A DNA stretch of 64,000 bases, taken from assembly GCA_021404565.1 (NCBI GenBank), contig JAAWWF010000010.1, positions 62,001 through 126,000 of the forward strand. Direction: 5' to 3'. Shown in pieces: positions 25,520-40,809 of the stretch (its first letter is position 1; every line of letters starts with the position of its first letter). The notes under the pieces were generated by a model. The model searched no databases. It saw only the letters and a list, made by a program, of their open reading frames with translations, and was not told where the DNA came from. The DNA is from Roseivirga sp. GTDB lineage: Bacteria > Bacteroidota > Bacteroidia > Cytophagales > Cyclobacteriaceae. Made by a program: the position numbers and the translations under genes.

Positions 25520-25561
25520 GCGGGACGACATGGTTTTTTGATAAAAATCATGTTATCCCGC
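25520..25561. promoter_or_regulatory. FNR-like box inside a long inverted repeat
   Basis: TGAT-AAAA-ATCA at 25539-25550 lies 57 bases before the YHYH gene start. The box is nested in a larger inverted repeat, GCGGGA (25520-25525) to TCCCGC (25556-25561), with about 16 of 19 arm positions complementary. The structure could act as an operator in DNA or as an RNA hairpin. Confidence 0.6.
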
Positions 25562-25606
25562 AAGTTTTCATAAAGGCTGTCATCTAAGCCTGTAAACAGA
25601 CTTATT

Positions 25607-26365
25607 ATGAAAACCTTAAAAACTCATTTTACCTTATTTTCAGCCGTACTTGCGATGATCGCATTTACTGGCTGTGGAAGCGATGACAGCGGAGATGACG
25701 GGACCACAACAACTGCTGAGCTGTCTATCGCTTTTGAAGCATTTGACACTGACAACACTACTATCTATCTCGATGGAGATGAGGTAGTCATTGAAACCAA
25801 CGGGCTACCCAATCACACCTCGCCCTATTGGTCGAGCACACACCCTTTATACGTAGCACCAACCGTGGCTACTGGTCTGGCTCCCGGTAACATAGACAAC
25901 TTTAATGGCTCGTATACACTACGTATTCCTGCCAACCCCACAAAGGCATCCAGCAGCTCACGCACGGGATTGGGTGCCATCGGTATTGCCGTGAGTGGCT
26001 CTGTAATTTATAATGATGAGGAAGGTCCCAATGTGCCGCTCGATAATGCTGCACCTTCGCTGGACTATACCGGAGCTCATACCGGACCCCAAAGTTATCA
26101 CTACCACCTGGAGCCAAAGGCCTGGTCAAATGATGACGATGTGCTGATTGGTGTAATTTCAGATGGATTCTTTCTATTTGGCAGAAAATGTAACGCTACA
26201 GGCACTTACCCAACAGATCTGGATGTATCGGGAGGACATAGCAGCACTACACAGTATCATACGGATGCTGTTTATCACTACCACATTCAAAATGAGCTGT
26301 ACCTGAACACGTATTACATTCTTTTCCCGGGAGATTACCAGGGAACACCCAATTCCATCAATTAA
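25607..26365 (+). CDS. YHYH-domain lipoprotein
   Basis: The 252-residue product has a lipoprotein signal peptide with lipobox AFTGC (Cys-23) followed by an acidic Ser/Asp/Thr stretch. The rest is a YHYH domain: SYHYHLEP (about residues 165-172) and VYHYHIQNELY (about 224-234), with WSSTHPLY and GAHTGPQ between them. The family is named for this motif and has no settled function; paired His residues near the surface would suit metal binding. It begins a three-gene operon with a MORN lipoprotein and a SCO copper chaperone, under an FNR-like box. Confidence 0.9.
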   Translation: MKTLKTHFTLFSAVLAMIAFTGCGSDDSGDDGTTTTAELSIAFEAFDTDNTTIYLDGDEVVIETNGLPNHTSPYWSSTHPLYVAPTVATGLAPGNIDNFNGSYTLRIPANPTKASSSSRTGLGAIGIAVSGSVIYNDEEGPNVPLDNAAPSLDYTGAHTGPQSYHYHLEPKAWSNDDDVLIGVISDGFFLFGRKCNATGTYPTDLDVSGGHSSTTQYHTDAVYHYHIQNELYLNTYYILFPGDYQGTPNSIN

Positions 26366-26371
26366 ATCCCG

Positions 26372-26950
26372 ATGAGGCACCTAATAACGATTCTGTTTTT
26401 TTTCTCTCTGTGCAGCTGTGGGTCCTTGGTTAAGGAGGCTTCGCAGTCTGCCATTGAGATAAACAAATCTGAGCTTACACTCAGAGCCAATGAAGGGCTT
26501 TTCTACTATAAGGAAAGTCCCTTCACCGGCACTGCCTTATCCTATATGACAGATGGTCGCATCATTGAGAGGGAGAGCTTTGTTAACGGAAAACGAAACG
26601 GCTTGCTGAAAAAATGGTATGCCGATGGTCAGCAGAGCTATCAGGCCAGCTACAAGAATGGCAGACTGCATGGAACAGGTAATACCTGGTGGCCGAATGG
26701 ACAAATGAGAACGGCCTCTAACTATGTAGAGGGCACTACACATGGCAAACAGTTACAGTGGTATCAGAGCGGTGTACTGTTTAAAGAAATCAACCTGATT
26801 GACGGTAAAGAACAGGGTCTGCAAAGAGCCTGGCGCGAAAACGGAAAAATCTACAACAATTACGAGGCCAAAAATGGCGGAATTTTCGGACTCAAACGAT
26901 CAAAACTTTGTTTTGAATTAAGCGAAGAGGAGGTACAATATGCGGACTAA
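26372..26950 (+). CDS. MORN/YwqK-type repeat lipoprotein
   Basis: The 192-residue product has a short signal peptide with lipobox SLCSC (Cys-16). It then contains about five MORN-variant repeats of the form Gxx-x-x-WYxxGQxxxxxxYKNGRLHG (for example KWYADGQQSY, TWWPNGQMRT, QWYQSGVLF, AWRENGKIY), the pattern often annotated as toxin-antitoxin system YwqK family antitoxin although most are envelope proteins. No toxin gene is adjacent. The stop lies 11 bases inside the SCO gene, which supports co-translation. Confidence 0.88.
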   Translation: MRHLITILFFFSLCSCGSLVKEASQSAIEINKSELTLRANEGLFYYKESPFTGTALSYMTDGRIIERESFVNGKRNGLLKKWYADGQQSYQASYKNGRLHGTGNTWWPNGQMRTASNYVEGTTHGKQLQWYQSGVLFKEINLIDGKEQGLQRAWRENGKIYNNYEAKNGGIFGLKRSKLCFELSEEEVQYAD

Positions 26951-27605
26951 ATACCTTACCCCATTACTATTGCTACTGGTTGTTTCCTGCAGCAAACCAG
27001 GAGAAAATCAAGCGCAAAACAGCCGGGTGGAGACCCTACCCTTTTATAAGGAAGCTACCTTTACACCTGACTGGCTGGAGCCGGACAGTGAAGAACTGCA
27101 AGACTATCATAAAATACCGGCTTTTAATCTGATCAATCAGTTGGGAGATACGGTAACTGAGGCGAGCCTGACCGGAAAGATTTACGTATCCGATTTCTTC
27201 TTTACCACCTGTCCGGGCATTTGCCCCAAAATGACAACGAATATGGGACTCTTGCAGGAGGAGTTTCTGGAAGATGACGATATCATGCTGCTCTCCCACT
27301 CGGTGACTCCTGAGATTGACAATGTGATCATGCTGCAAAACTATGCGGAAGCCAAGGGTGTCAAGGCAGAGAAATGGCACTTGCTTACAGGTGATCGTAA
27401 AACGATCTACGACCTGGGCCGCAAGTCCTACTTTGTAGAAGAGGACCAGGGCGTAGATAAAACAGAAGATGAATTTCTGCATACCGAAAACTTTGTTCTG
27501 ATTGACCAGAACCGGCATATCCGAGGGATTTACAATGGACTCAATAAAGCATCGGTAAGTCAATTAATAGCCGACATCAAGACGCTTAAGAAAGAAATAC
27601 TCTAG
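26940..27605 (+). CDS. SCO1/SenC-family copper chaperone lipoprotein
   Basis: The 221-residue product has a lipobox VVSC (Cys-17) and a thioredoxin fold with the Cu-binding TTCPGICPKMT (Cys-91 and Cys-95) and the distal His-181 in EFLHTENF. SCO proteins deliver copper to, or keep reduced, the copper sites of haem-copper oxidases. Here it is not next to a cytochrome aa3 operon but is cotranscribed with YHYH and MORN lipoproteins behind an FNR-like box like that of the cbb3 operon. This makes the CuB site of cbb3 the most likely client; that link is inference. Confidence 0.95.
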   Translation: MRTKYLTPLLLLLVVSCSKPGENQAQNSRVETLPFYKEATFTPDWLEPDSEELQDYHKIPAFNLINQLGDTVTEASLTGKIYVSDFFFTTCPGICPKMTTNMGLLQEEFLEDDDIMLLSHSVTPEIDNVIMLQNYAEAKGVKAEKWHLLTGDRKTIYDLGRKSYFVEEDQGVDKTEDEFLHTENFVLIDQNRHIRGIYNGLNKASVSQLIADIKTLKKEIL

Positions 27606-38688: not shown

Positions 38689-40809
38689 CTACTTTTGTGC
38701 TGTTTCTACTTTGATATCGGTACCCAATCGCTGCAGGTAAGCAATCAGTGCTATGATCTCAGCCCCTTCAGAGGCTTCTATGCCATCAGCCTTCAGACTT
38801 GCTACAATCTTCTGTGCCTGTGCCTTCAGCTCCTCATTGGCTGTATCTTCATAGCCTTCAGGGTATGGTACTCCCACCTTACGCAGTGCTCTGATCTTGC
38901 CTGCTGTCTTTTCCGGATCGATAGACTGTGTAAACAACCATGGATACGGAGGCATAATAGAGCCTTTAGAGGTAATTTGAGGGTCGTACATGTGCGAGTA
39001 ATGCCAGGCATCATTGTATCGGCCTCCTATCCTATGCAGGTCGGGGCCTGTTCGTTTAGAGCCCCACAGGAATGGGTGATCATAAACGAATTCACCCGCT
39101 TTGGAATACTCCCCCCGATAACGCTCTGTTTCTGACCTGAAAGGCCTTACCATTTGGGTATGACAGCTCACACAACCTTCTTTTATATAGAGATCTCTAC
39201 CATGCAGCTCCAATGGAGTATAGGGCTGTACCGTCTCAATCGTTTTTATGTTAGAGTCGATCAGAAAGGTTGGCACCATTTCCACAATACCTCCTATAAG
39301 AATAGCTACCAGTACGAGTACAGTGAAGAATACAGGCTTGCGTTCCCAGGCGCTATGCCAGTGACCACCCACAATTTTCTTTTTCTCCAATGCAGGAGCT
39401 TCAGCATCTTCGTTGGCTATAAAGTATCCGCTGGAAGCTGTTTTGATCAGGTTATAAGTCATGATAATGGCACCTGAGAGGTAGAGCAACCCACCTATGG
39501 CCCGCATCATATACATGGGTATAATCTGAGTAACAGTCTGCAAGAAGTTAGGGTACTCCAGGAAGCCTTCTGCATCGAAGTCTTTCCACATAAGGCTTTG
39601 AGTGACACCCGCAGCATAGAGCGGCAGCGCATATACGATGATACCGAGTGTTCCCAGCCAGAAGTGTACATTGGCCAGTTTGGTAGAGTGCAGCTTGGTG
39701 CCCCACATTTTTGGGATCAACCAGTAGAGCATACCAAATATCATGAAACCATTCCAGCCAAGACCGCCTATGTGTACGTGGGCAATGATCCAGTCAGTAA
39801 AGTGGGCGATGGCGTTGATGCTCTTAATTGAAAGCAAAGGCCCCTCCAGGGTTGACATACCATAGGCCGTAACGGCTACCACCATGAATTTCAGTACCGG
39901 ATCTTCCCGTACTCTGTCCCAGGCACCACGAAGCGTCAACAGTCCGTTAAGCATACCACCCCATGAAGGAGCGATCAACATGACGGAAAACACCACACCG
40001 AGCGATTGGGCCCAGTCGGGTAATGAGGTATACAGCAAGTGGTGTGGGCCTGCCCAGATATAGATAAATATGAGTGACCAGAAGTGAATAATCGAAAGTT
40101 TATATGAGTATACTGGCCGGTTGGCGGCCTTGGGCAGATAGTAATACATCAGCCCCAGAAAGGGCGTAGTAAGGAAGAAGGCCACAGCATTGTGTCCATA
40201 CCACCACTGTACCAGGGCGTCCTGCACTCCGGCATACCATGAGTAACTCTTAAAGAAATCGACCGGAATCGCAAACGAGTTGACTACATGGAGTACCGCT
40301 ACGGTGACGAACGTGGCTATATAAAACCAGATGGCCACATACATATGTCGTTCCCTTCTTTTCAGAATTGTTCCGATCATATTGATACCAAAGACGATCC
40401 AAATCAGTGTAATAGCGATATCAATCGGCCATTCCAGCTCGGCATACTCTTTAGAGCTGGTAAGCCCAAGAGGTAGCGTAATGGCCGCGGCCAAAATAAT
40501 AAGTTGCCAGCCCCAAAAATGGATCCAGCTAAGCATATCACTGAACATGCGCGTTTTCAGCAGGCGCTGCATGGAGTAATACACCCCCGCAAACATGGCA
40601 TTACCTACAAAGGCAAAGATGATGGCATTGGTGTGTAACGGTCTCAGCCTCCCGAAAGAGGTATACTGAAGGCCCATATTCATTTCGGGAAAAACTAATT
40701 GGGTGGCTATTAATAGCCCCACGAGCATACCTACCAGTCCAAAAATGACGGTAGCGATGATAAAGTACTTCGTGATTTTGTTATCGTACTTAAATTGTTG
40801 GAGTTCCAT
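38689..40809 (-). CDS. ccoNO: cbb3 cytochrome c oxidase fused CcoN-CcoO
   Basis: One 706-residue chain joins the catalytic subunit CcoN and the monohaem subunit CcoO, as is usual in Bacteroidota. CcoN (about 1-470) has the haem/CuB ligands in RPLHTNAIIF (His-59), WWYGHNAVAF (His-206) and AGPHHLLYT (His-256/257). The linker carries TM near 495-520, and CcoO supplies haem c through GCVSCHTQMVRPF (about residue 540) with GPDLHRIGGRYND. It reduces O2 with high affinity and pumps protons. An FNR-like box lies 86 bases before the start, and ccoQ follows after 6 bases. Confidence 0.97.
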   Translation of the reverse strand: MELQQFKYDNKITKYFIIATVIFGLVGMLVGLLIATQLVFPEMNMGLQYTSFGRLRPLHTNAIIFAFVGNAMFAGVYYSMQRLLKTRMFSDMLSWIHFWGWQLIILAAAITLPLGLTSSKEYAELEWPIDIAITLIWIVFGINMIGTILKRRERHMYVAIWFYIATFVTVAVLHVVNSFAIPVDFFKSYSWYAGVQDALVQWWYGHNAVAFFLTTPFLGLMYYYLPKAANRPVYSYKLSIIHFWSLIFIYIWAGPHHLLYTSLPDWAQSLGVVFSVMLIAPSWGGMLNGLLTLRGAWDRVREDPVLKFMVVAVTAYGMSTLEGPLLSIKSINAIAHFTDWIIAHVHIGGLGWNGFMIFGMLYWLIPKMWGTKLHSTKLANVHFWLGTLGIIVYALPLYAAGVTQSLMWKDFDAEGFLEYPNFLQTVTQIIPMYMMRAIGGLLYLSGAIIMTYNLIKTASSGYFIANEDAEAPALEKKKIVGGHWHSAWERKPVFFTVLVLVAILIGGIVEMVPTFLIDSNIKTIETVQPYTPLELHGRDLYIKEGCVSCHTQMVRPFRSETERYRGEYSKAGEFVYDHPFLWGSKRTGPDLHRIGGRYNDAWHYSHMYDPQITSKGSIMPPYPWLFTQSIDPEKTAGKIRALRKVGVPYPEGYEDTANEELKAQAQKIVASLKADGIEASEGAEIIALIAYLQRLGTDIKVETAQK

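Follow-up and report, generated by a model that had tools for sequence, protein, structure and literature searches.

Because their linkage is kept in other genomes, three genes encoding a YHYH-domain lipoprotein, a MORN-repeat envelope protein and an SCO protein almost certainly form one co-inherited functional unit. We propose, at a probability of roughly 0.4, that the SCO protein of this trio is a dedicated metallochaperone, that its likeliest client is the co-encoded YHYH lipoprotein and that the MORN protein acts as an adaptor.

The trio lies in a stretch of 64,000 nucleotides from Roseivirga sp., the whole of which was analyzed and is called the window here. The three genes run in the same direction, with a 6-base gap between YHYH and MORN and an 11-base overlap between MORN and SCO; the coordinates of the window reading frames bear out the sequence-only reading on this point, and each product scores above its Pfam cut-off. 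The YHYH protein matches PF14240 with 42.2 bits (cut-off 25; profile positions 2–113 of 193), the MORN protein MORN_2 (PF07661) with 39.8 bits (cut-off 29.6) and the SCO protein SCO1-SenC (PF02630) with 87.7 bits (cut-off 22.8). At E 0.01, neither the YHYH nor the SCO protein was assigned to an NCBIfam family. All three N-termini are lipobox-like. The lipobox cysteine of YHYH is C23, followed by GSDDSGDD, and the N-terminus of the window MORN protein is consistent with the lipid anchor ascribed to it earlier. The closest named relative of the window YHYH is a protein of a Roseivirga metagenome bin (82% identity). The source genome comprises 8.57 Mb in 81 contigs, compared with 4.1–4.7 Mb in six other genomes of the genus that were sampled; its reported contamination is just 1.7%.

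Features of the operon and its upstream region (window coordinates)
Feature	Position	Strand	Basis
42-base hairpin 5' of the operon	25520-25561	+	inverted repeat
YHYH-domain lipoprotein, 252 aa	25607-26365	+	Pfam
MORN_2-repeat envelope protein, 192 aa	26372-26950	+	Pfam
SCO1/SenC lipoprotein, 221 aa	26940-27605	+	Pfam

The arms of the inverted repeat upstream of the operon (25520–25538 and 25543–25561) are 84% complementary, and the 133 bases from 25474 to 25606 fold with a z of −4.6. The element TTGATAAAAATCAT (25538–25551), formerly read as an FNR-like box, is the apex or loop of this hairpin. Searching the window for the FNR pattern with one mismatch allowed gave 7 sites where 4.24 are expected, and 7 or more turned up in 14 of 100 shuffles. 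FNR-like sites are thus about as frequent as chance predicts, and FNR control of the operon was rejected. The hairpin is single-copy in the source genome with up to 3 mismatches and may serve as an operator or terminate transcription of the upstream gene.

To survey linkage, 291 genomes of the window's order were scanned for YHYH. At least 98 carry YHYH of some kind; SCO of any kind is present in 270. Forty short-type loci (L036–L075) and, as controls, 14 long-type YHYH loci (L076–L089) were picked by hand from the matches listed for the order. Two further loci retrieved alongside the controls stand outside both counts: in L091 the order is MORN, SCO, YHYH, and L090 has two YHYH genes. A scan of named genomes yielded at least 561 relatives among at least 586 pattern matches, and the best 80 (L095–L174) were used, a sample skewed toward near relatives. 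Linkage was scored by tblastn as YHYH-MORN-SCO order on a single strand within 4 kb; 74 of the 80 named relatives and 36 of the 40 short-type loci show it, as do 0 of the 14 controls. Gene calling placed the trio directly consecutive in 68/80 named relatives and 33/40 short-type loci, counts lower than those of tblastn because overlapping frames hid some genes: in mechanical calls from the first start codon, the median spacings of adjacent trio genes are −14 and −32 bases. Among the loci missed by tblastn, four have YHYH alone (L045, L074, L075, L118) and three have YHYH and MORN with no detected SCO (L046, L120, L170); in L137 YHYH occurs at two places and room is short, and L161 and L169 stop at a contig end. 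The sequence-only reading would have been refuted by loss of linkage in other genomes, and the linkage is there.

Protein distances among 97 trios correlate between YHYH and MORN (0.92), YHYH and SCO (0.82) and MORN and SCO (0.85), each with 0/500 permutations reaching the value; this fits co-inheritance, with shared ancestry alone accounting for part of it. A tree of trio YHYH proteins (66 rows) holds 57 from Bacteroidota, 6 from Pseudomonadota, 1 from Balneolota and 2 with no phylum. Trio-bearing Gammaproteobacteria include Shewanella, Pseudocolwellia and Psychrosphaera; the proteobacterial names of some bins may be misassigned. In the two Shewanella loci the following genes are equal in size (Pfam for L165: UPF0047, a LuxR-type response regulator and UvrC), and the location looks like an ordinary chromosomal site. 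Five loci (L132, L139, L144, L145 and L173, at about 0–11 kb) are larger islands of differing content, in which the trio is accompanied by additional YHYH genes (some with EF hands) and by genes for sigma factors, sensors, EF-hand proteins and CotH kinase.

Conserved residues could form metal sites in the YHYH and SCO proteins. Invariant in all 97 distinct trios are YHYH residues C23, H70, D153, H158, H165, H167, D186, D206, H211, H224 and H226, leaving seven histidines and three aspartates as candidate ligands; the paired His motifs noticed earlier are therefore real. D153, H158, H165, H167, D186 and D206 are still invariant in 77 rows that include eight long-type proteins, and the window protein has the His triad and Asp of the PF14240 family. 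H224 and H226 lie in a second YHYH-like motif, not kept by the protein at L132:6792–7898. Window SCO ligands C91-x3-C95 and H181, the CxxxC and distal His of SCO proteins, are invariant in 97/97 trios, as is C180 of MORN, which is C-terminal and outside the lipobox.

A fair AlphaFold2 model of the window YHYH (pLDDT 83.2, pTM 0.77) found nothing in the PDB at E 0.001 or better by Foldseek (top E 1.1), and VIA-align 2 against 171 chains gave a top Z of 2.3, with rows spanning 35–54 residues; we make no claim that the fold is new. The YHYH sequence profile matched only EF-hand-type entries of the PDB, at E 0.06 or worse, mostly at positions where some long-type rows hold EF hands. The significant matches of the model (E 0.001 or better) are 5 predicted viral proteins, 4 of them named YHYH; a viral scan with YHYH recovered 13 distant relatives. 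Small EF-hand proteins are encoded directly 5' of the YHYH gene in L107, L113, L123, L140, L147, L154, L160 and L163, which suggests that calcium has some part.

Three or more acidic residues occur within the ten that follow the lipobox cysteine in 88/112 YHYH proteins, compared with 13/103 SCO and 10/78 MORN proteins, a lipobox being recognized in just 78 of 108 of the latter. Acidic export signals of this sort are carried by Bacteroidetes surface lipoproteins, according to passages of PMC5080379; the optimal signal of Capnocytophaga is C-X-K-(D/E)2-X, and the YHYH N-terminus shows a likeness to a surface signal. Since SCO and MORN mostly lack such residues, YHYH may face outwards and SCO inwards. 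An all-periplasmic relay, as first imagined, is doubtful for the same reason: the YHYH N-terminus is surface-like, whereas the SCO and MORN proteins for the most part have no such N-terminus.

Besides handling metal, SCO proteins may work as thiol-disulfide reductases, a point against the chaperone reading. SCO genes were searched in ten trio genomes, and a quick tree was built from 60 random rows of the 108 distinct trio SCO proteins plus 14 others. A single branch separates the trio SCO proteins from the rest (61 rows versus 13, SH-aLRT 99.8); this counts the second SCO of L066 on the trio side, because it lies inside that gene cluster and falls there, and under its original label two changes are needed. 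A second SCO gene in 6 of the 10 genomes (L189, L190, L192, L195, L198, L201) is flanked by COX4-size and DUF420-size genes and follows a COX3-size gene, the COX3-COX4-SCO-DUF420 pattern resting on Pfam in L190, L192 and L198 only and on gene size in the others. Other SCO paralogues lie between UPF0093 and cytochrome c (L207, and L092 of the source genome), and the aa3/caa3-like operon of the source genome holds a divergent SCO-like gene (L227:11382–11978; 29 bits with the trio SCO profile). Its own clade and its own gene place support the view of the trio SCO as a putative dedicated metallochaperone, distinct from the oxidase-adjacent paralogues.

MbnP reportedly binds copper, on the strength of a biochemistry paper of 2021 in PNAS. 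Among the listed matches, compared by eye, an MbnP gene lies 1.4–2.9 kb upstream of a long-type YHYH gene, on the same strand, in 11 of 36 genomes (G112, with its long-type match at a contig edge, was excluded), and 24 of the 36 have MbnP somewhere. MbnP-like, di-haem MauG-like and long-type YHYH genes stand in a row at L083:5222–8812, L084:5989–9383 and L085:5721–8813, an apparent second copper context of the YHYH family. As of 2013 there were no data tying close MbnP homologues to copper, and the pair was called mysterious (PMC3621798). A methanotroph has a surface copper protein, CorA, with a MauG-like partner, CorB (PMC3912023).

Clustering of neighbor genes over 121 loci found ECF sigma factors, some of them likely unrelated, in 43 loci, Metal_resist/LTXXQ-like sensors in 39, small membrane proteins in 22 and EF-hand proteins in 18, the largest clusters apart from the trio itself. 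The sensor-like gene is directly 5' of YHYH 27 times (median gap 46). Its profile matches PDB entries weakly (Spy 0.0016, NccX 0.06, CnrR (CnrX) 0.37 and worse); of four sensor proteins run against Pfam, one passes Metal_resist (54.1 versus 29.2), another passes LTXXQ and two pass neither. Sensor residues H66 and H119 are invariant in 28 aligned rows of 41, and L139 and L145 lack the second histidine. The sigma/sensor cassette was not found beside the window trio. A single cassette of this kind is present in the source genome, on a different contig from the trio and with no YHYH within the 16 kb read; lying elsewhere and beside a different gene, it indicates that the cassette is not trio-specific. 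Its ECF sigma, anti-sigma-like and sensor genes (L226:5943–8708) are 5' of a 392-aa lipoprotein that by eye resembles cytochrome c peroxidase. With SCO ligands intact, MbnP beside other YHYH proteins and a sensor in some loci, the copper link of the sequence-only reading is plausible, although its tie to cbb3 oxidase fails, and we consider it somewhat better than an even bet that the trio concerns copper.

That tie took the trio for a periplasmic relay delivering copper into CuB of the cbb3 oxidase, on the ground that the window has no other oxidase operon. A CcoNO fusion gene (38689–40809, minus strand) is indeed the sole COX1-type gene in the window, but the source genome has four. SCO proteins serve oxidases elsewhere, cbb3 is frequent in trio genomes, and the trio is 13 kb from ccoO in the window and 16 kb from it in G262 of the same genus. 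With kinship ignored, however, full-length FixO is found in 26/33 trio genomes (27/33 at the Pfam cut-off) versus 35/39 genomes without YHYH. No FixO match was obtained in six trio genomes (G250, 100% complete; G173, 100%; G129, 96%; G057, 92%; G026, 89%; G042, 87%), and G227 (99% complete) carries the trio and partial FixO matches only, through which it passes the Pfam cut-off. Among the 26 with full FixO, the trio is near ccoO in only 2, which belong to the window's genus; in the remaining 24 the distance is 1 Mb or more or the two are on different contigs, short contigs limiting some of these comparisons. Neither co-occurrence beyond expectation nor, on these draft contigs, conserved closeness to cco, as for a cbb3 assembly factor, was found, so that the cbb3 relay is highly improbable. 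That the trio helps to assemble a different known copper enzyme, for instance an aa3/caa3 oxidase or nitrous oxide reductase, is improbable as well. COX1 is matched in each of the seven trio genomes that lack full FixO (by a contig-end fragment in G173), but COX1 is too common to be diagnostic, and the separate SCO genes in a COX3/COX4/DUF420 setting count against this alternative. The NosZ domain nos_propeller is rarer in trio genomes (6/33 versus 19/39 without YHYH, kinship ignored). Both cbb3 and NosZ were rejected as common clients, there being no positive association in the genome comparison. In one genome, a YHYH match outside the trio has a ccoO gene some 6 kb away (G216:C19:58095–64912).

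Transfer might also run the other way, a surface YHYH scavenging copper and passing it inward via MORN to SCO and on to several cuproenzymes, oxidases included. The surface-type N-terminus of most YHYH proteins, the aptness of SCO as a copper acceptor, the MbnP neighbors and the precedent of methanotroph CorA (in the part of PMC3912023 that describes it) all speak for such an uptake route; the conserved set over the 121 clustered loci includes no outer-membrane transporter, and we regard the route as rather unlikely. One cluster of 5 loci (e.g., L062:471–2945) resembles by eye an outer-membrane receptor of the carboxypeptidase-regulated kind, which makes transporters near the trio rare rather than wholly absent. 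Alternatively, YHYH could be a metal-dependent hydrolase acting on an envelope or extracellular polymer, with SCO as its thiol or metal partner. For jumbo-phage YHYH, PMC7824862 predicts a Zn site of a His triad plus Asp and a tail-associated hydrolase; our model matches predicted viral YHYH proteins, and CotH-like genes (10/120 loci) and EF-hand genes (22/120) accompany some trios. A hydrolase leaves unexplained both the fixed SCO clade with intact metal ligands and the MbnP genes adjoining long-type YHYH, and we judge it unlikely.

We keep to the reading in which YHYH is the client of SCO, as against transfer in the opposite direction or to an oxidase, and give it slightly less than even odds. 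SCO would bind copper through its CxxxC and His and load YHYH in the periplasm, at a site drawn from some of the seven histidines and three aspartates. MORN, with its invariant C180, would hold the two proteins together or relay metal or electrons, and loaded YHYH would then be flipped across the outer membrane to its external face by way of its acidic lipoprotein export signal, to judge from its sequence. About a third of loci have the ECF sigma, small membrane protein and CnrX/Spy-like sensor, often directly upstream; since this cassette lies in the same stretch, metal or envelope state probably controls the operon there. Copper, location and direction of transfer are all things we infer here. 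The asymmetry in occurrence between SCO and YHYH across the order counts in favor of this scheme. Against it count the invariant ligands, which would also suit zinc or iron, zinc being what is predicted for the phage form; the presence of MbnP and MauG-like genes in only 2/120 short-type loci (L121 and L163, Pfam-confirmed) and the failure to find MbnP in the source genome; the window trio standing without the cassette; and the loci with YHYH alone or with YHYH and MORN without SCO. More tentatively still, the trio YHYH may be a new kind of surface metalloprotein in Bacteroidota that uses copper, perhaps as an enzyme, and is matured by its own SCO chaperone and MORN adaptor; YHYH would then be basically a copper family with two partner copper systems, SCO and MbnP/MbnH.

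YHYH proteins are found in bacteria, diatoms and phages. In the open-licence PMC literature on YHYH, SCO context, MbnP and ECF systems we found nothing on this operon, and in that on YHYH no functional test. A fixed trio with a likely copper chaperone offers a testable lead on the ligand of YHYH and on its loader, and, if SCO serves YHYH, could extend the known SCO targets beyond respiration.

The trio can be set beside several known systems. SCO1/SenC proteins of the BsSco/YpmQ type share with the trio SCO the Pfam SCO1-SenC domain, the CxxxC and distal His and the lipoprotein form, and the nearest solved structures are 4hde and YpmQ 1xzo; the trio SCO differs in having its own clade and a fixed place behind YHYH and MORN, with no oxidase operon in the loci read. 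CnrYXH/NccYXH-type ECF systems resemble many trio loci in combining sigma factor, small membrane protein and periplasmic sensor, although the PDB scores are weak and the window trio has no such cassette beside it. Jumbo-phage (PMC7824862) and diatom (PMC11992049) YHYH proteins belong to the same Pfam family, and conserved His and Asp are reported for the phage forms; the latter are tail-associated, whereas a pair of YHYH-like motifs and a MORN-SCO context mark the trio type. MbnP/MbnH (PMC3621798), CorA/CorB and MopE/SACCP (PMC3912023) are extracytoplasmic like the trio, and CorA and MopE bind copper at the surface; some long-type YHYH genes have an MbnP-MauG pair upstream, whereas trio loci mostly lack the pair and the trio contains no peroxidase. 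GlxA of Streptomyces lividans is a radical copper oxidase, whereas YHYH had no solved relative by sequence or fold here. By analogy, the trio might nonetheless work like Sco and GlxA in Streptomyces, where, according to PMC4736821, an SCO protein is needed for the copper maturation of an extracytoplasmic, non-respiratory enzyme.
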